Source: Pedobacter sp. HMWF019 (GTDB lineage Bacteria > Bacteroidota > Bacteroidia > Sphingobacteriales > Sphingobacteriaceae). From it: DNA of 37,309 nucleotides. The stretch lies in the NCBI RefSeq assembly GCF_003061025.1, contig NZ_QAIL01000256.1, forward strand, positions 1-37,309, written 5' to 3'. This document shows, one piece after another, positions 10,419-37,301 of the stretch; within the stretch, counting starts at the first letter, position 1, and every line of letters starts with the position of its first letter. The position numbers and the translations under genes were made by a program. The notes beneath the pieces are model-generated. The model saw only the letters and a program-made list of their open reading frames with translations. It did no database searches and was not told where the DNA came from.

Positions 10419-11760
10419 TGATCTTCTGTTTTAATTTCTCCGATTTACTTCCCAAATCCCTGGCCTGTTTCCACAAGTCAACTGCCTTTTCCTTATTCCC
10501 TTTTAAAGCAAGAATATCGCCATAATGCTCCAGATAAAGCATCTTTTTAGCCGGATTCAATAGTAGTGCCTTCTGTATTTTGGTTTCTGAAAGATCAAAT
10601 TTCGCCAGGTTCATCAGCACCAGGGCATATACATCTTCCACAGAAGCCAGCAACTCCTGCTCTCCAGCTGCCAGTTCTTCTGCCGTTGCTATGTTTTCGA
10701 GTGCAGCCGCATACTGATCTTCACGATGCTGTGCAAAGGCAAGGTAATAATATAAAACCGCTTGATTAGGATAAACAGATACCGCCGCAGAACCAATTTC
10801 GATTGCCCTTTTAAAGTCCTTCTGAGAAAGATAGATATTCAAAACCTGCTCCCAAACCACATAGATCTGCTCAGATAACTGCAGTGATTTTAAATACTGG
10901 GTCAGCGCTTCTTTCGCATCGCCTTGCTTATACAGCAAATCACCATACATCGCAAACAGACGGGGATCGTCCTGATGTGCAGCAACCAATTCTTTCAAAA
11001 TATTACCTGCTGAAGAAATTTGCCCTTCAGCCACATAGTAGTCCACCATAGCCAGGTCAACCTCCAGACTGGAAGGATCCAAAGCTTTTGCCTTCTTTAA
11101 CATATCCAATGCTTCAGACTTTTTACCATCTTTCTGCAGCAAGTTACTGGCGTATAAATAGCTTTTTATATCCTCAGGATGATCTGCAATCACTTCACCA
11201 GCTTCATGCTCCGCTGTCCTGGATTTTTTCTCCTGACTTAAGCGCTTTCTCCCTCTGGAAGATTCAACCGATACACCAAATTTTTTCTCTAATTCATCAT
11301 AGGCCTTCAAAGCACCTGATACATTCCCGGAAATGGCCAGCGCATTACAGCGGTCAAAATAATAAGCATCCACATCAGGCTCCATGACGATCAGCCGTTC
11401 CAGCACCTGTACCAAACCAGGCATATCTCCTTTTCTCTTGTACAGTTCGGCACAGAGCTTCCAATACCAAATGTTATTAGAATTAAGCTCCATGGCCTTC
11501 TTCAGCGCGAATTCAGATTCCTGCAATTTATTTTGCCGGTAATCCAAACTGGCAATCTCGTAGTAAGCATCTGCCTGTCTGGGGTCCAGACTTACTACTT
11601 TATTAAAACTCTCCACAGCTTTAATATAGTTTTCATTGATTTTGTAGCGGATGCCATCAAAAAAAAAGCCCTTAACCAAATTACTATCAGCCTGAACTGT
11701 CTTTTGAGCAAAAGCAGGAAACGCAACAAATAGAAAAATAGTTAAGGCCCTGTATTTCAT
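10396..11760 (-). CDS. Exported tetratricopeptide-repeat protein
   Basis: 454 residues from the ATG at 11758-11760, which begins a clean signal peptide (MKYRALTIFLFVAFPAFAQ). The frame stays open 18 codons further upstream, but that extension would run into dut and destroy the signal peptide. The mature protein is a string of TPR units, with typical helices such as ADAYYEIASLDYRQNKLQESE, ALDMLKKAKALDPSS, LFAMYGDLLYKQGDAKEALTQYL and YLEHYGDILALKGNKEKAVDLW. It is most likely a periplasmic or outer-membrane-associated scaffold. The start lies 7 bases after the dut stop and its 3' end overlaps the DUF4292 gene by 23 bases. No enzymatic motif is visible. Confidence 0.88.
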   Translation of the reverse strand: MKYRALTIFLFVAFPAFAQKTVQADSNLVKGFFFDGIRYKINENYIKAVESFNKVVSLDPRQADAYYEIASLDYRQNKLQESEFALKKAMELNSNNIWYWKLCAELYKRKGDMPGLVQVLERLIVMEPDVDAYYFDRCNALAISGNVSGALKAYDELEKKFGVSVESSRGRKRLSQEKKSRTAEHEAGEVIADHPEDIKSYLYASNLLQKDGKKSEALDMLKKAKALDPSSLEVDLAMVDYYVAEGQISSAGNILKELVAAHQDDPRLFAMYGDLLYKQGDAKEALTQYLKSLQLSEQIYVVWEQVLNIYLSQKDFKRAIEIGSAAVSVYPNQAVLYYYLAFAQHREDQYAAALENIATAEELAAGEQELLASVEDVYALVLMNLAKFDLSETKIQKALLLNPAKKMLYLEHYGDILALKGNKEKAVDLWKQARDLGSKSEKLKQKINEKRYFK

Positions 11761-11767
11761 TTTCTTT

Positions 11768-12199
11768 TTATTTACCTGTATGTCCGTATCCACCCGCGCC
11801 GCGAGCAGTATCACTGAGTTCTTCTACAGCTGCCCAACTCACCGTTTCGTGTTTCGCAATAATCATCTGAGCTATACGATCCCCATTATTCACTGTAAAG
11901 TCTGTATCGGAAAGGTTCACAAGCAGCACTTTAATCTCTCCCCTGTAATCTGCATCAATTGTACCAGGCGAATTTACTATACTGATCCCATGCTTATAGG
12001 CTAAGCCACTTCTTGGGCGAATCTGAGCCTCATAACCAACAGGCAATTCCATATGGAGGCCGGTCGGAATCAGAACCCTTTGCAAAGGCTTAATCACAAC
12101 TTCATGTTCAACAAAAGCACGCATATCCATACCTGCAGCATGTTCAGTTTCGTACGCTGGCAAGGCATGTCCCGAATTATTGATAATATTTATCTTCAT
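11768..12199 (-). CDS. dut: Deoxyuridine 5'-triphosphate nucleotidohydrolase (dUTPase)
   Basis: 143 residues, the standard size of trimeric dUTPases. The conserved motifs are present in order: I AGMDMRA (22-28), II RPRSGLA (61-67), [14 protein letters not shown] (79-89, with the catalytic Asp in the IDADYRG segment), [11 protein letters not shown] (about 106-114), and the C-terminal motif [12 protein letters not shown] (133-143), which closes over the active site. It hydrolyses dUTP to dUMP and pyrophosphate, keeping uracil out of DNA and feeding dTMP synthesis. It sits 7 bases from both the flippase stop upstream and the TPR start downstream, so it belongs to the same operon. Confidence 0.97.
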
Positions 12200-12206
12200 C
12201 TGATCT

Positions 12207-13691
12207 TTATTTTGTATTTAAAATTTTCTTAATGTCGTCTTTTTCCATAAAATAAATGCCCGCTACAAATAAAATAAGCAGACCATTACCAATATAGATA
12301 TTCTGTTTAAAGGTATAAAAAGACAAATAAACCAACACTATCGAAGTAGCAAGATAGCCCAATGTTCTTTTTAAATTATATGGTATCGGATAATACTTCT
12401 GACCAAGAAGGTAAGAAATGACCATGATAATCAAATAAGCCATCATACTCACCCAAGCCGAGCCCATGTAGCTGTATTTAGGAATGAGAACAATATTCAT
12501 CACAATAGTAAAAACCGCACCTACTAAAGAAATATATAAGCCATAACGGGTCTGATCAGATAACCTGTACCACACCGAGAGATTCATATAAATACCCAGG
12601 CATACATACCCGAATAACAAATAAGGAACAGCCGGAAGACCAATCCAATACTTACTGGCAATAAAATGTTTCAGCAAATCTAAATTTGCAATCAAGCCCA
12701 CAAATAAAATGGCCAGGGCGAGAACAAAATAATTCAGAATAGTTGCGTAAGTATTCTTTGCATTTTTATTTTTTGCATGGCTAAAGAAAAAAGGCTCCGC
12801 CCCCAATCTAAAAGCCGTATTAAAAATACTGATAAAAATGGCCAGTTTACAAACCGCTCCATAGATCCCAGTTTCCTGATCAGCTATATTGTGCGGCAAG
12901 TATTTACTCAGTAAAATCTTATCCAGATTTTCATTGACAATAAAAGACAAGTTTGCCACGAGTACCGGCCAACTGTAGCCAAACATCTTATAAAAAAGCA
13001 CTTTATCAAACTTAATCTCCAGCTCCATAAACTGAGGTAGAAGCAGCAGAAACGTCACCAGGCTGGCTACCAGATTAGAGATAAATACATAGCCTACCCA
13101 TCCAGCCCTAAACCAGCTTTCCAGCCAATGCGCACCCACCATCTGGTGTTTAATAATGAAGGGAATCACAAAAATAAAAATAAGGTTAAGGCCCACAAAA
13201 CAACCAATATTCAAAAATTTGATCAGGCTATACCGAAAAGGTTTACCATCCGCTCTAAGCTTAGCAAAGGGAATTACGCAAATAGCATCCAGAAAAAGAA
13301 ACCAGGAAAAATAACGAACATAGCGGCGCTGATCGTCCAGTCCAGCCATGGAACCATTCATCGTGAATTTTGCAAAATAGTCTGTAAAAACCAGCCCGGT
13401 GATTAAAACCAGAGCAGAGATGAAAGCAATAATCCAAAAACTGTTGTTGTAAACTTCCTTTTTCTTATCCTCATACTTATTGAGGTAACGAAAAAAAGTA
13501 GTCTCCATACCAAATGCCAGGATAACATTGAGGATAGAGGCATAACTGTACATTTTGGTAAAGATTCCGTATACACCTTCCGCATATACCCGCGTATAGA
13601 TTGGAGTCAGAATAAAATTGAATAACCTTGAAAATATGGTACTTATCCCATAGATCATCGTCTGACCAGCAAATTTTTTAAAAACAGACAC
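12207..13691 (-). CDS. Polysaccharide/oligosaccharide flippase (Wzx-like, MATE/MOP superfamily)
   Basis: 494 residues, strongly hydrophobic, with about 12-14 membrane-spanning stretches spread over the full length. The N-terminus ([26 protein letters not shown]) is typical of the polysaccharide-transporter branch of the MOP superfamily. Such proteins flip undecaprenyl-linked sugars for O-antigen, capsule or exopolysaccharide across the inner membrane. No glycosyltransferases are adjacent, so the substrate is unknown. The start is GTG at 13689-13691, only 3 bases after the acylphosphatase stop. An ATG lies 11 codons downstream, but the GTG start gives the expected amphipathic N-terminus. Confidence 0.85.
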
Positions 13692-33175: not shown

Positions 33176-33856
33176 ATGAATTATATAAAGTTCTCCACAT
33201 CTTACCATACCGAAAAACTCCAGTCAGAATTAACGGAGGTTCTAAAAGAGGAATGGCCCTTACATTTTAATGCAAAGGATTTTAATGGCGACTGGAGGAG
33301 TATTTCTCTTCGTTCGGCCAGTGGACTAAGTAAAGATATCTACGCCCATCCAGACGTTACCTATCAAGACACACCTGCACTTAGCCTGATGCCTTATGCA
33401 AAAGAGATTCTTGATTCCTGGAAATGCGACAAGGAAGCCGTACGCCTGTTGTCACTGGCACCCGGGAGTTTCATCAAACCTCATAAAGACCAGGGATGCA
33501 GTTACGCAGATGGACAATTCAGGATCCACATCCCTATTGTAACCAATCCGGATGTATATTTTACTCTTGATGATGAAAAACTCCATTTGGCCCCGGGAGA
33601 ATGCTGGTATATGAATTTTGGCGCTACTCATAGTATTGTTAACGCCGGCAGTACAGCAAGGGTACACCTGATCATTGATGGGATACGCAACAACTGGACA
33701 GACCAGTACTTTGCCCAACATGGCTATAACATCAGCGAAAAATCAGCCGGAATGACCTATGATGAGGCGACAAGAGATGGTATGATCCGGGAACTGGAAC
33801 AAATGAATACGGAAACCGCAAGACGTTTAATTGCCCAATTAAGAACAGATATATAA
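33176..33856 (+). CDS. Aspartyl/asparaginyl beta-hydroxylase-type Fe(II)/2-oxoglutarate oxygenase
   Basis: 226 residues. The double-stranded beta-helix core of the Asp/Asn hydroxylase family (PF05118-type) spans about 60-170: the His-x-Asp iron pair is His103 and Asp105 (IKPHKDQG), the distal His is His152 (FGATHSIVN) and the 2-oxoglutarate-binding Arg is Arg162 (ARVHLIID). Arg116 in FRIHIPI is also typical. All required residues are present, so it should be active. Bacterial members hydroxylate free amino acids, peptides or lipid-linked groups, and the substrate here is unknown. The C-terminal ~50 residues are an added helical region. No exact -7 element was found in the 149 bases separating it from the lyase gene. 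Its stop overlaps the sulfotransferase start by one base (TAATG). Confidence 0.88.
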   Translation: MNYIKFSTSYHTEKLQSELTEVLKEEWPLHFNAKDFNGDWRSISLRSASGLSKDIYAHPDVTYQDTPALSLMPYAKEILDSWKCDKEAVRLLSLAPGSFIKPHKDQGCSYADGQFRIHIPIVTNPDVYFTLDDEKLHLAPGECWYMNFGATHSIVNAGSTARVHLIIDGIRNNWTDQYFAQHGYNISEKSAGMTYDEATRDGMIRELEQMNTETARRLIAQLRTDI

Positions 33857-34806
33857 TGCAGATCACTCCAATAGCCAATTGGATTCCCTATCAGATGAGC
33901 CACACCAGTGAAAGCGGCTGGATGCTCAAATGGCTTGACCTAGGAAAAAAAATCATAGACGAACCTTTTTTTGACGAGACCATACAAATATGCCGTTCCA
34001 AACAAAGAGAACGATCTGCTTTACAAAGCCTTTCCAGTCCAGACTTTATGACTGAGGCCTGCAAAAAATTACATTTTCTAGCGCCCTCAGCTTTTATCTT
34101 TCATGTATCCAGATGCGGCTCAACTTTACTTTCACAAGCTTTTTCGCAATCAGACGAAAATATAGTCATTGCAGAAGCACCCTTGCTCGATGAGATTTTA
34201 AGGGCTGGGGAAAAACAACCTGAAATCCAATTACCTGTTCTGGAAACCTGGTTCAGATCTGCGCTCAACTTAATGGGTCAGCATAGAAATTTCAAGGAAA
34301 GCAATTACCTCATCAAACTGGACAGCTGGCATATTCACTTTTATGAAACCTTACGTCAATGGTTCCCAACGACTCCTTTTTTCTTCCTTTACCGTAAGCC
34401 AGAAGAAGTAATTGCCTCTCATGATAAGCGAAGAGGTATCCACAGTGTTCCCGGGATGATCAGCAACACGCTGCTTAAGACCGAAAGACCAGATCACTAT
34501 GGAAGTGACTTTAACCGTTATACAGCAGAAGTATTACAGCAGTATTACCAAAAACTGGCGGGGATACATCAGTTGAAACATTCGAAAAACCTGTTTTTCG
34601 ATTATGCAACGGGCGTAAAAGAAATGGTATACACTTTCAGTTCCTTTACAAGAATACCAATACATCAGAATCTGTTTGAGCGGCTAAATTACCACAGCAA
34701 ATCTTCAAATGATTTATTCAGGCCCGAGGCCAGTCCCGAGCCCAAAAGATTCTACTTCGACGATTGCCATCACAGTTACGAATATTTAAGAGCCATCAAG
34801 AGCTAA
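33856..34806 (+). CDS. Sulfotransferase-family protein (PAPS-dependent type)
   Basis: 316 residues. The 5'-phosphosulfate-binding loop appears as FHVSRCGSTLLSQAF (82-96) and the 3'-phosphate-binding segment as FFFLYRKPEEVIASHDKR (175-192). These two motifs together define PAPS-using sulfotransferases. No signal peptide or membrane segment is seen, so it acts in the cytoplasm. The family moves sulfate from PAPS to hydroxyls or amines of lipids, sugars or peptides. A kinase of the PAPS-forming family lies two genes downstream, and two hydroxylases flank it, one of which could create the hydroxyl that is sulfated (inference). The acceptor is unknown. Translational coupling with the upstream hydroxylase is likely from the one-base TAATG overlap. 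Confidence 0.88.
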   Translation: MQITPIANWIPYQMSHTSESGWMLKWLDLGKKIIDEPFFDETIQICRSKQRERSALQSLSSPDFMTEACKKLHFLAPSAFIFHVSRCGSTLLSQAFSQSDENIVIAEAPLLDEILRAGEKQPEIQLPVLETWFRSALNLMGQHRNFKESNYLIKLDSWHIHFYETLRQWFPTTPFFFLYRKPEEVIASHDKRRGIHSVPGMISNTLLKTERPDHYGSDFNRYTAEVLQQYYQKLAGIHQLKHSKNLFFDYATGVKEMVYTFSSFTRIPIHQNLFERLNYHSKSSNDLFRPEASPEPKRFYFDDCHHSYEYLRAIKS

Positions 34807-34902
34807 GCACAACCAACTAAGCTTTTCTTTTTCTGCAAAGTAATGTTGTAAATTGCAATCCAGATCTCAACCGAATACGCCATCTAAAAATAGACTATTA
34901 AA

Positions 34903-35853
34903 ATGACAGAGTGCACTTTTCTTCGCGTTTTTTTTGAAGTTCATCAAAGTAAAAAACAAAGAGACCTTACCCCCGAGTATCCCAATTTTGACCGCCTTGA
35001 AAACATATGGCTAAGCATCTACGGCCTGGGAAAGTACGAAACCTATCATTTTATATATGCAGACTGCAGACATTTTAATCATTTCAATCAATGGTTAAAT
35101 CAGCTTAAGGGTAATGATTTCCTGGAAAATGCAGCAATTCAGTTCAATAACTGGTTAATAGAACAACCAGATTCCGATCGTGCCCCGGTACAAAAGCAGC
35201 TACTCAATGAAGAGCAATTGCAGTTCTGGGAACAATATGGCTACCTGAAAATAAGCGATCTTATTGAACCAGAACTTTGCGATGAAGTAAAAGAATTGAT
35301 CTGCACACACCTGGACATCAATTTATCGAATCCGTATAGCTGGTATACACCACACCCAGACTGGCAAGGGCTTATGGTACAAATCTATCAGGGCATCAGT
35401 CAACAAGCGATCAGGAAACACCCAAACGTACATCAGCTATTTTCAGAACTTTACGCTGGCCAACCCATCATTGCCAATACGGACAAACTCAGTTTTAATC
35501 CGCCCGAAACTCCCTACTGGCCTTTCAAAAGCGGTGATCTTCATTGGGACATAGATTTGGATAAGCCGATAGAATATACTATACAGGGACTCATCTACCT
35601 GGACGATGTTCCGGCAGACCGGGGGCCATTAACTTTAGTTCCAGGAGTACACCATCAATTTAACGAATGGATAAAATCGTTCAAAACCCTTGAAGACGCA
35701 CACCATGTGATGCGAAGCCAGGTACAGGGCATACCTGTACCCGGAAAAAAAGGAGATATCATTGTCTGGCTCAATACACTTCCTCATGCCGCAAGTGCCA
35801 ATCACTCTCCTTTGCCCAGGTTTGTTCAATACCTCAGTTTCTCCAAATTATAG
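34903..35853 (+). CDS. Phytanoyl-CoA dioxygenase (PhyH)-type Fe(II)/2-oxoglutarate oxygenase
   Basis: 316 residues. The PhyH fold starts at about 105 (QLQFWEQYGYLKISDLI). The iron-binding His214 and Asp216 are in DLHWDIDLD, the distal His295 is in LPHAASANHS, and Arg306 (PLPRFVQYLS) is the 2-oxoglutarate ligand; GLIYLDDVPADRGPLTLVPGVH is the typical central segment. The first ~90 residues are an extra domain I do not recognise (aromatic- and His-rich, YETYHFIYADCRHFNHFNQW). Members hydroxylate lipids, amino acids or natural products. It starts 96 bases after the sulfotransferase, a gap with no obvious promoter or terminator, and its TAG stop overlaps the GTG start of the kinase gene by one base. 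Confidence 0.87.
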   Translation: MTECTFLRVFFEVHQSKKQRDLTPEYPNFDRLENIWLSIYGLGKYETYHFIYADCRHFNHFNQWLNQLKGNDFLENAAIQFNNWLIEQPDSDRAPVQKQLLNEEQLQFWEQYGYLKISDLIEPELCDEVKELICTHLDINLSNPYSWYTPHPDWQGLMVQIYQGISQQAIRKHPNVHQLFSELYAGQPIIANTDKLSFNPPETPYWPFKSGDLHWDIDLDKPIEYTIQGLIYLDDVPADRGPLTLVPGVHHQFNEWIKSFKTLEDAHHVMRSQVQGIPVPGKKGDIIVWLNTLPHAASANHSPLPRFVQYLSFSKL

Positions 35854-36383
35854 TGGGACACATTATTCAGTTTACAGGTTTATCCGGGAGTGGGAAAACA
35901 ACTTTATCAAATGCTTTCCTTGAATGGGGAAAGCAATCTGGCCTCAGAATTAAACTCATAGACGGAGACGTCTATCGTCAAACCCTCTGCAAGGACCTGG
36001 GCTTTAGCAAAGCAGACCGTCTGGAGAACATCTCCCGCCTGGGCAATTATGCTTCAAGTCTTTTAACAGATTATGATTTCATATGCATAGCCGCTATTAA
36101 TCCATATGAGGAGGGAAGGCTTCAGCTAAAACTAAAATACAAAACCTCATTAATTTGGCTCAAGTGTGATTTGGAAACACTTATTCACAGAGATCCCAAA
36201 GGACTGTATAAAAAGGCAATGCTCCCAAATGGCCATCCCGACAAAATATACAATCTTACCGGCCTCAACGACACTTTTGAGACACCGCAGCTGGCAGATT
36301 TAACCTTGGATACGAGTATACTAAGCCCTGATCAATGCCTCCAGTTAACTGTTGATTTTCTGAGTAGCAGAGAGATTCCTTAG
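35853..36383 (+). CDS. Adenylylsulfate (APS) kinase-like protein
   Basis: 176 residues from GTG 35853, which overlaps the upstream TAG. Walker A is GLSGSGKT (9-16). DGDVYRQTLCKDLGFSKADRLENISRLG (37-64) closely follows the APS-kinase segment (Asp-Gly-Asp, Lys-Asp-Leu-Gly-Phe, Arg-x-Glu-Asn-Ile-x-Arg). The lid motif RDPKGLYKKA (113-122) is also canonical. The usual SerProTyrArg motif, whose Ser is phosphorylated in some APS kinases, is here Asn83-Pro-Tyr-Glu. The family makes PAPS from APS, the sulfate donor for the sulfotransferase upstream. No sulfate adenylyltransferase is in the window. Its last 39 bases overlap the 3' end of the convergent metallophosphatase-like gene. Confidence 0.87.
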   Translation: MGHIIQFTGLSGSGKTTLSNAFLEWGKQSGLRIKLIDGDVYRQTLCKDLGFSKADRLENISRLGNYASSLLTDYDFICIAAINPYEEGRLQLKLKYKTSLIWLKCDLETLIHRDPKGLYKKAMLPNGHPDKIYNLTGLNDTFETPQLADLTLDTSILSPDQCLQLTVDFLSSREIP

Positions 36384-37301
36384 TACCAGGTGTGCCTGAG
36401 CAAACTGATCTTTATGTGCTAAACCCGCAATAAGATATTTATGGTGAAAATCATTCCTTTGTTTATTTTCATTAAAACCAAATCTGGTTTTTCCTATGAC
36501 CATTCCATTTTCTCCGGCCTGACTTAATACAACGTCATGCTTATCCCTGTTTTTTAAGATCATAGCGCCCTGCAAAACTTTATTGCTACTGCCACTAGCT
36601 ATAAAATCAATGTGAGCCGAGACTGCTGCCAATTCCTTGCTGCTAAATTTATCTTCGTCAAAACCCAGTTGGGACAAGCAGATCACCAGATCGCACCCCA
36701 TTTCTCTCTTTAGATACTCAGCAGTTCTATTTGCCGCAGTATAAGGATTTTCGAACAAAATCCCTTCTATATCCAGCCGCGGCCCAACACCTGTTACACC
36801 TACCCTCAGCCCCTTTGTTTTAATTACTATATACGGTTTAATTGCAGAATTCAATACGGAATGACTAAACCTGTAATTGCAATTCACCAGAGAAAAATTC
36901 ATTTGCGGAATCAATTCTGAAAAACCAGCCTGTCCCATAGACAACTCATTAATTCCGATGGCAGCTGCGTGATAGCCAATTTTATTCATCAGGTTAATCG
37001 TTCTTTCCTGCATTCCCCGACTTTGTTGCCGATCGAGGAAATTACCTGCATCAACAACCAATCCAGACACATCTTCACCTGCCATCAAAGCATAAACTTT
37101 CTCCAATCCTCCAAAACCCTCCTGATTACTTTTGATTTGACTGTTCAAATCATTGGTCTGAAAGATATTGATACACTTTCCGGCATCAATAGTATTGATC
37201 TTTTTACTAACATCAGCCAATGCCTGTAAAGGTTTACCAAGCATAGTAACTCCAGCGAAAATGCCTGAGCTTTTCAAAAATGATCTTCTGGGAGAGGACA
37301 T
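36345..37301 (-). CDS. Tat-exported 5'-nucleotidase/metallophosphatase-like protein lacking metal ligands (pseudo-enzyme candidate)
   Basis: 318 residues beginning with a twin-arginine signal, SPRRSFLKSSGIFAG, with cleavage probably after the Ala at 29. The fold is that of UshA-type 5'-nucleotidase N-terminal domains, with every signature in order, but the metal ligands are changed: TNDLN (51-53, His to Asn), DAGN (84-87, Asp to Asn), GINE for GNHE (116-119), SQLG (210-213, His to Gln) and SGSSN (236-240, both His lost). Only Asp51 remains. Phosphatase activity by the usual two-metal mechanism is therefore unlikely. The C-terminal substrate-binding domain of full-length enzymes is absent, as in the split two-gene arrangement common in Bacteroidota; the partner gene may lie beyond the right edge. 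Convergent overlap of 39 bases with the kinase-like gene. Confidence 0.85.
   Translation of the reverse strand: MSSPRRSFLKSSGIFAGVTMLGKPLQALADVSKKINTIDAGKCINIFQTNDLNSQIKSNQEGFGGLEKVYALMAGEDVSGLVVDAGNFLDRQQSRGMQERTINLMNKIGYHAAAIGINELSMGQAGFSELIPQMNFSLVNCNYRFSHSVLNSAIKPYIVIKTKGLRVGVTGVGPRLDIEGILFENPYTAANRTAEYLKREMGCDLVICLSQLGFDEDKFSSKELAAVSAHIDFIASGSSNKVLQGAMILKNRDKHDVVLSQAGENGMVIGKTRFGFNENKQRNDFHHKYLIAGLAHKDQFAQAHLVLRNLSATQKINS

Follow-up and report, generated by a model that had tools for sequence, protein, structure and literature searches.

The window analyzed here is a whole stretch of 37,309 nucleotides from Pedobacter sp. HMWF019, one entire contig (C181 of 624) of a 6.9-Mb genome. It contains four genes lying in one direction, referred to below as A (Asp/Asn-hydroxylase family), B (sulfotransferase-like protein), C (PhyH oxygenase), and D (adenosine 5'-phosphosulfate (APS) kinase). 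The conserved core of this locus is the A–B pair; the four genes do not constitute a closed pathway, and C is an optional member that is linked more loosely. A and B are linked across genomes and in some of them share an open frame, D is complementary to other APS kinases, tail-collar proteins (Pfam family PF07484) co-occur with the pair, and the C-terminal -RN ending of these proteins is tied to A in Bacteroidota. Taken together, these patterns incline us slightly toward the view that A and B are a two-step protein-modifying pair acting on the C-terminal Asn of a collar protein, with D as the source of 3'-phosphoadenosine 5'-phosphosulfate (PAPS).

We infer the substrate, the modified residue, the chemistry, the order of the steps, and the surface location as follows. 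The substrate would be an approximately 180-aa protein with a tail-collar domain encoded in the same genome. A would hydroxylate the last residue, Asn, of the -(F/Y)-P-S-R-N terminus, and B would move sulfate from PAPS onto the new hydroxyl. Where PAPS does not come from another APS kinase, D would make it, fed by the ATP sulfurylase of the genome, and C would be an optional further oxygenase. The modified collars would belong to a surface locus, often with a giant immunoglobulin (Ig)-like protein that in at least one genome is sorted by the type IX secretion system (T9SS). We tentatively propose, with slightly less than even confidence, that this hydroxylation followed by O-sulfation of the collar C-terminal Asn is an undescribed modification system, present in Bacteroidota and some Betaproteobacteria, in which the pair is sometimes fused and often has its own PAPS supply. 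If this is true, a recurring pair of orphan genes would gain a function, one branch of the Asp/Asn hydroxylases would gain a specific substrate, and there would be a first point of access to the cellular tail-collar proteins, which are poorly understood; the predicted substrate and residue are specific enough for direct testing.

Gene content of the locus and linkage of A with B

The four open reading frames (ORFs) have the position, strand, and order claimed in a first-pass annotation of the window, and both one-base overlaps that it reported are present. The features are as follows.

33176..33856, + strand: A, 226 aa, Fe(II)/2-oxoglutarate hydroxylase of the Asp_Arg_Hydrox family (ORF, Pfam, PDB profile)
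33854..33858, + strand: TAATG junction, stop of A and start of B with a one-base overlap (read in the sequence)
33856..34806, + strand: B, 316 aa, sulfotransferase-like protein (ORF, Sulfotransfer_3 below the cut-off, invariant motifs)
34903..35853, + strand: C, 316 aa, PhyH-type oxygenase, extended N-terminally by ~100 residues, optional locus member
35851..35855, + strand: TAGTG junction, stop of C overlapping the GTG start of D (read in the sequence)
35853..36383, + strand: D, 176 aa, GTG start, APS kinase, predicted PAPS supply
36345..37301, − strand: UshA-like protein (RRSFLK start) whose end and that of D overlap, part of the wider collar locus

The gap between B and C is 96 bases. The contig stops 8 bases past the start of the UshA-like gene, and thus the locus is cut off at its right end.

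The identities of A, C, and D are established, and that of B weakly so. A matches Asp_Arg_Hydrox (PF05118) with 70.6 bits (gathering cut-off 22.6), C matches PhyH (PF05721) with 55.3 bits (cut-off 22; the match begins at residue 109), and D matches APS_kinase (PF01583) with 117.4 bits (cut-off 21.1), its score for the NCBIfam model apsK (TIGR00455) being slightly under the cut-off (131.3 vs. 138.7 bits). The claims that both oxygenases retain their iron and 2-oxoglutarate residues and that the nucleotide motifs are kept in the other two proteins hold in the wider families as well. In A, residues H103, D105, H152, and R162 are invariant across 48 sequences, and we take them to be the HxD...H iron triad and the distal Arg; H214, D216, H295, and R306 of C, invariant in 11 sequences, presumably form the same HxD...H plus Arg arrangement with the oxygenase roles. 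The DGD motif and most P-loop positions of D are invariant in 11 sequences, and their roles are assumed to be as in the APS kinase family. SRCGST and R180/S188, which fit a 5'-phosphosulfate loop and a 3'-phosphate motif (R...S), are invariant in 51 sequences of the B family, 42 of which match Sulfotransfer_3 at E ≤ 0.01. For RaxST, a positive residue and an invariant serine are described as PAPS-motif residues (PMC6637879), to which R86 and S188 of B likely correspond, as judged by sequence.

Relatives of the locus were collected in two sets. The first comprises 99 related genomes, counting that of the window; a B match is present in 17, which gives 16 loci besides the window's, some on short contigs. 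A single-sequence scan with B over genome contigs found no relative, whereas scanning the GTDB contigs with a B alignment gave 356; the best 80 of these 356 are called named loci below. They belong to Chitinophaga, Pedobacter, Spirosoma, Mucilaginibacter, Flavobacterium, Sphingobacterium, the betaproteobacterium Collimonas, and others. Stop-to-stop ORF calling was used for the later locus and Burkholderiales counts.

A lies near B in all 16 loci of the relatives and in 74/80 named loci, and in 66 of the 74 it is upstream on the same strand. In two loci, L034 and L131, A and B occupy one open frame. The recurrence of this adjacency across Bacteroidota and also in Collimonas makes it more than a chance arrangement, and the independent scattering of the genes that the first-pass annotation had named as the outcome speaking against a common pathway was not observed. 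Its idea of a four-gene pathway survives as a unit of hydroxylation and PAPS-dependent sulfation, given the A–B linkage and the complementarity of D, although not as an exact gene set: C is present in 10/16 loci of relatives and 31/80 named loci, and D in 10/16 and 60/80, respectively. Such absences and the variable gene order are what would be expected if A, B, C, and D were unrelated neighbors with no common pathway; set against the shared A–B frames, the recurrent proximity of A and B, and the distribution of D, we find that explanation scarcely credible.

In two genomes that carry A only (L042 and L046), C adjoins A and B is not there, which argues that C is independent of sulfation. In the same two loci, A forms a fusion with a HEAGH-motif protein (L042:7065-8255 and L046:15043-16239), which elsewhere is encoded by a separate neighboring gene. 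The HEAGH protein is a possible metallopeptidase, its stand-alone form having no Pfam match. A possible further fusion was seen in G324:C1:2570050-2570598, where an A-like domain is located inside an 809-residue open frame.

The distribution of APS kinases was assessed from matches with E < 1e-30 read from the results table, at most 35 first-look candidates being scored per relative's genome, with misses possible. All 17 B-positive genomes among the 99 relatives have an APS kinase and thus a PAPS source, which in 11 is the D of the cluster. The window's genome yielded no full APS kinase other than D, and CysD of ATP sulfurylase is also present there. Nine of the 11 genomes with a cluster D have no other full-length match, and the remaining two (G023 and G052) have a second one. 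All six B-positive genomes without a cluster D (G026, G033, G040, G048, G058, and G062) encode an APS kinase elsewhere (Fisher p = 0.002). Within the genus, an APS kinase was found in 16/16 B-positive vs. 8/44 B-negative genomes (p = 5e-9). This complementarity supports B as a PAPS-using enzyme despite its weak Pfam score, in line with the assignment by which the kinase makes PAPS and the sulfotransferase uses it, the supply coming from D or from another kinase. Simple presence of APS kinase was dropped as a co-occurrence marker, 88/99 genomes having a match at E ≤ 0.001, many of these being short P-loop matches.

Among the best 80 of the 356 relatives, the B of the window is nearer to Chitinophaga proteins (up to 67% identity) than to any from Pedobacter (at most 60%), a sequence pattern that hints at horizontal transfer.

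Tail-collar proteins and their C-terminal ending

The acceptor missing from the window is probably a protein, as suggested by the genomic distribution of tail-collar proteins. They were found in 36/99 relatives, including 17/17 B-positive vs. 19/82 B-negative genomes (p = 1.6e-9). In a sample of 395 genomes drawn across the phylum (at most 5 B, 7 A, and 16 collar candidates scored per genome, with misses possible), collars occur in 103 genomes, and all 12 strong B matches are accompanied by a collar, compared with 91/383 of the rest (p = 6e-8). A was found in 24 genomes of this sample; 23 of the matches are strong, and all 23 genomes have a collar. A collar gene is located within the fetched stretch in 44/80 named loci and elsewhere in the genome for the remaining 36/36. 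The converse fails, since collar genes often occur where A and B are absent. The single collar match of the window's genome is on contig C521 (3,492 bases); the protein ends in GLYPSRN, and a long ORF begins after it. Since the UshA-like gene lies beside collar operons in relatives, it is plausible from gene order that C521 adjoins the right end of the window.

The collars of genomes carrying the pair share a characteristic ending. In a first comparison, 80/86 collars of B-positive genomes end in SRN or ARN and one in PRN, vs. 10/33 in B-negative genomes. After this pattern had been noticed, 100 further stretches were fetched. In the comparisons of endings, the A–B class consists of genomes in which B was found; the collar genomes without A comprise 10/14 from the relatives (four with weak matches were left out) and a manual selection of 28/80 from the phylum sample. 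At least one -RN collar was found in 39/39 newly sampled B-positive genomes (33 with distant collars and 6 fetched from the 11 other B-positive genomes of the phylum sample), 11/11 A-only genomes, and 5/28 genomes without A (p = 3e-15, uncorrected for kinship), a count favored by the larger number of collars from the distant B-positive genomes (102 in 33) than from those without A (50 in 28). The count per protein, which is free of this bias, gives 84/134 vs. 5/50 without A (p = 5e-11, likewise uncorrected). In all data, an -RN collar is present in 93/94 B-positive genomes (94 being left of 100 entries, some duplicated, after removal of identical protein tails), 16/16 A-only genomes, and 10/38 genomes without A; the corresponding fractions of proteins are 151/203, 27/37, and 12/74. 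Since A-only genomes also show the signature, it follows the hydroxylase.

Kinship was addressed in two ways. Among pairs of collars with 45–55% identity, the ending differs in 40/63 pairs across A status (in 38, the A-positive member has -RN), vs. 15/100 within A-positive and 6/27 within A-negative genomes. At 55–65% identity, the respective values are 9/22, 7/62, and 2/8, and above 65% the ending differs in 0/70 pairs, 6 of which are across A status. Edge-disjoint tree pairs across A status include 21 that are discordant in the expected direction and none in the opposite one (p = 9.5e-7), together with 7 having -RN on both sides and 16 on neither.

The modified residue is suggested by a scan of 174 collar columns (130 vs. 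74 proteins; the distant collar sets of the 36 named-locus genomes without a local collar were left out). The C-terminal Asn of -(F/Y)-P-S-R-N is the position that best distinguishes A-positive from A-negative genomes (0.91 vs. 0.22), with a total variation of 0.69, the next column having 0.43 and the median being 0.19. The signature also extends over whole collar arrays. All copies end in -RN in 17/20 arrays beside A–B, 12/30 distant sets, 8/13 A-only arrays, and 1/21 arrays without A; pooled, 37/63 arrays with A or B vs. 1/21 with neither (p = 8e-6). For these counts, adjacent and distant sets were distinguished by locus number, and loci lacking a collar match at E ≤ 1e-20 together with a complete end were dropped.

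The family relationships of A are consistent with such a substrate. Its closest solved relative is the L-proline cis-4-hydroxylase 4p7w (E = 1.1e-10 with the single sequence and 1.4e-21 with a profile against the PDB), and it is also related to PDB entry 1e5r, named a proline oxidase there, which we take to be proline 3-hydroxylase. By their names, these relatives act on free L-proline, with its free carboxylate, which would suit a C-terminal residue as the substrate of A; by the same reasoning, the Asn of -SRN would be the simplest candidate. The names could also be read in favor of the first-pass annotation, which leaned toward a small-molecule, lipid, or peptide product. In tailoring of a small molecule, lipid, or glycan, the oxygenases and the sulfotransferase would act together and D would give PAPS; small-molecule substrates are frequent among PhyH enzymes, and in cyanotoxin clusters an oxygenase is encoded together with a sulfotransferase and an APS kinase. 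We regard this as distinctly unlikely: no scaffold-building gene recurs among the clustered ORFs of at least 60 aa around A–B, every strong B match is in a genome that also encodes a collar, and the C-terminus of the collar tracks A.

Outside Bacteroidota, collars were found in 58/270 Burkholderiales genomes. Forty regions were picked by hand from 36 of these 58 genomes; one of these regions (L244) contains A–B, and the counts include 36 of the remaining 39. In the five A–B loci (L244 and four from Collimonas), 9/10 collars end in -RN, compared with 19/74 in the 36 loci without a local A, where -RN is present as one copy in each of 19 loci. All copies end in -RN in 3/4 arrays with A–B vs. 0/19 without a local A (p = 0.002). 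The signature is thus stronger with A in Burkholderiales as well. Exactly one -RN copy was observed in 12/19 of the arrays without a local A (L234–L273) and none in 7; the one copy per array points to a possible division of roles among copies. Another conserved gene lies near A–B in Collimonas (L096, L103, L108, and L121, near 11000–13000); it looks to us like a hydroxylase of the cupin_8/FIH type. The same gene adjoins the collars in L234, where there is no local A.

Several results weigh against modification of the collar C-terminal Asn by A and B. The modification is a prediction from sequence. The score of B for Sulfotransfer_3 is 18.3 bits, below the Pfam cut-off of 27, and the B profile matched no solved sulfotransferase in the PDB. 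A has no match in the fetched stretch of 6/80 named loci, and a collar gene is lacking there in 36/80. Three genomes have weak B matches (E = 5e-5 to 8e-4); a collar match is present in G347 and absent from G155 and G419. It is also absent from G140 (phylum sample) and G077 (relatives), which have weak A matches. No overlap was found when the ends of C521 and the window were compared. Many B-positive genomes also hold collars with other endings (67/114 are -RN in the distant sets, with 12/30 arrays all -RN as given above), and the B-positive locus L112 is without any -RN collar. The -RN ending occurs without A in 10/38 Bacteroidota genomes, and all three collars of G059 (L047), which belongs to the window's genus, end in -RN in a genome with no match to A or B. 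An exclusive association of -RN with A was rejected, as 19/36 Burkholderiales loci without a local A carry one -RN copy, A having been sought locally rather than genome-wide. The occurrence of -RN without A indicates that the ending was not made only for A, and the common single copies without a local A indicate that it is older than A or partly independent of it. As a separate observation, the -RN collars of G059 are up to 88% identical to those of the B-positive G058, and a recent loss or an assembly gap may be involved.

These -RN ends without A, and the recurrence of other genes in the locus, leave room for a related explanation, in which A and B modify another collar residue or another product of the locus, such as the giant Ig-like or the periplasmic-binding-like protein, and -RN is a feature of lineage or recognition. 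We consider this rather unlikely given how far the C-terminal Asn column stands above all others and the way -RN follows A in identity-matched pairs, tree-independent pairs, and later-fetched genomes; moreover, the periplasmic-binding-like gene is present in just 22/80 named loci.

Wider locus of the collar genes

The families recurring around A–B were given working gene labels (COL, GIANT, MT, PEP, PBP, FMT, and USHA). They include tail-collar proteins (one to three copies), the giant Ig-like protein, which carries a T9SS sorting domain in L022, and PorP/SprF, as well as periplasmic-binding-like, formyltransferase-like, UshA-like, methyltransferase-like, and HEAGH proteins. None of these families occurs in every locus. 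The formyltransferase-like neighbor was rejected as a partner to be counted, homologs being present in all 99 genomes (best E in the window's genome 2.6e-15). A protein of ~384 aa resembling Peripla_BP_6 is encoded near the collar and giant genes in L023–L034 (e.g., L025:5070-6224); it has no obvious signal peptide and mostly ends in an SGWxNPYLxV-like sequence.

Homologs of the UshA-like gene are present in 8/16 loci of the relatives and 24/80 named loci. In the relatives, the gene is either divergent from the collar operon or its formyltransferase/periplasmic-binding gene (L020, L021, L024, and L036) or first on the same strand as the collar operon (L023, L025, L028, and L029). The protein of the window (36345–37301, − strand) begins with MSSPRRSFLKSSG, a start that in our view resembles a twin-arginine translocation (Tat) signal, and it seems to be without the usual UshA metal motifs. 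It might be a carrier that exports the signal-less collar proteins as folded hitchhikers.

Comparison with known systems

The open-licence literature yielded nothing relevant on sets of a beta-hydroxylase, a sulfotransferase, and an APS kinase, and no role of collar proteins together with hydroxylation or sulfation was found there. For hydroxylation of a C-terminal asparagine, the papers listed concern hypoxia signaling. To our knowledge, bacterial protein sulfation has rarely been described, and we know of no precedent for sulfation of a residue that requires prior hydroxylation. The proposed substrate family, that of MdpB-like and phage tail collar proteins (PF07484), is present in the genome of the window.

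Individual components have counterparts elsewhere. A aligns with 4p7w and 1e5r over ~170 residues, including HxD and the distal His and Arg; it differs from them in length (226 vs. 290–292 aa) and in being tied to a sulfotransferase and collar proteins. AspH belongs to the same Pfam family as A (PF05118), and enzymes of the AspH and FIH types take protein Asp or Asn, although these are internal residues of EGF-like or ankyrin repeats and no sulfation step follows. A 2-oxoglutarate oxygenase, a sulfotransferase, and an APS kinase are clustered in the cyanotoxin gene sets for cylindrospermopsin (cyrI-cyrJ-cyrN) and saxitoxin (sxtN-sxtO). Those sets include genes for a small-molecule scaffold, none of which was seen among the families recurring here, and A belongs to a different family.

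The nearest described system is RaxX-RaxST of Xanthomonas, in which a bacterial PAPS-using sulfotransferase acts on a peptide substrate (PMC6637879). Its combination of a sulfotransferase, a PAPS supply, and a protein or peptide substrate raises the possibility that the locus studied here makes a sulfated secreted signaling peptide of the same kind. We judge this very improbable. In RaxX-RaxST, the precursor has 60 residues, the acceptor is a tyrosine, and RaxA and RaxB belong to a predicted type I system (PMC6637879); around A–B, no family of small precursors with a Tyr acceptor recurs among the ORFs of at least 60 aa, no type I exporter family recurs, and a hydroxylase is central. Compared with RaxX-RaxST, the pair described here would differ in two respects: a hydroxylase accompanies the sulfotransferase, and sulfate would be accepted by the C-terminal Asn of a collar.

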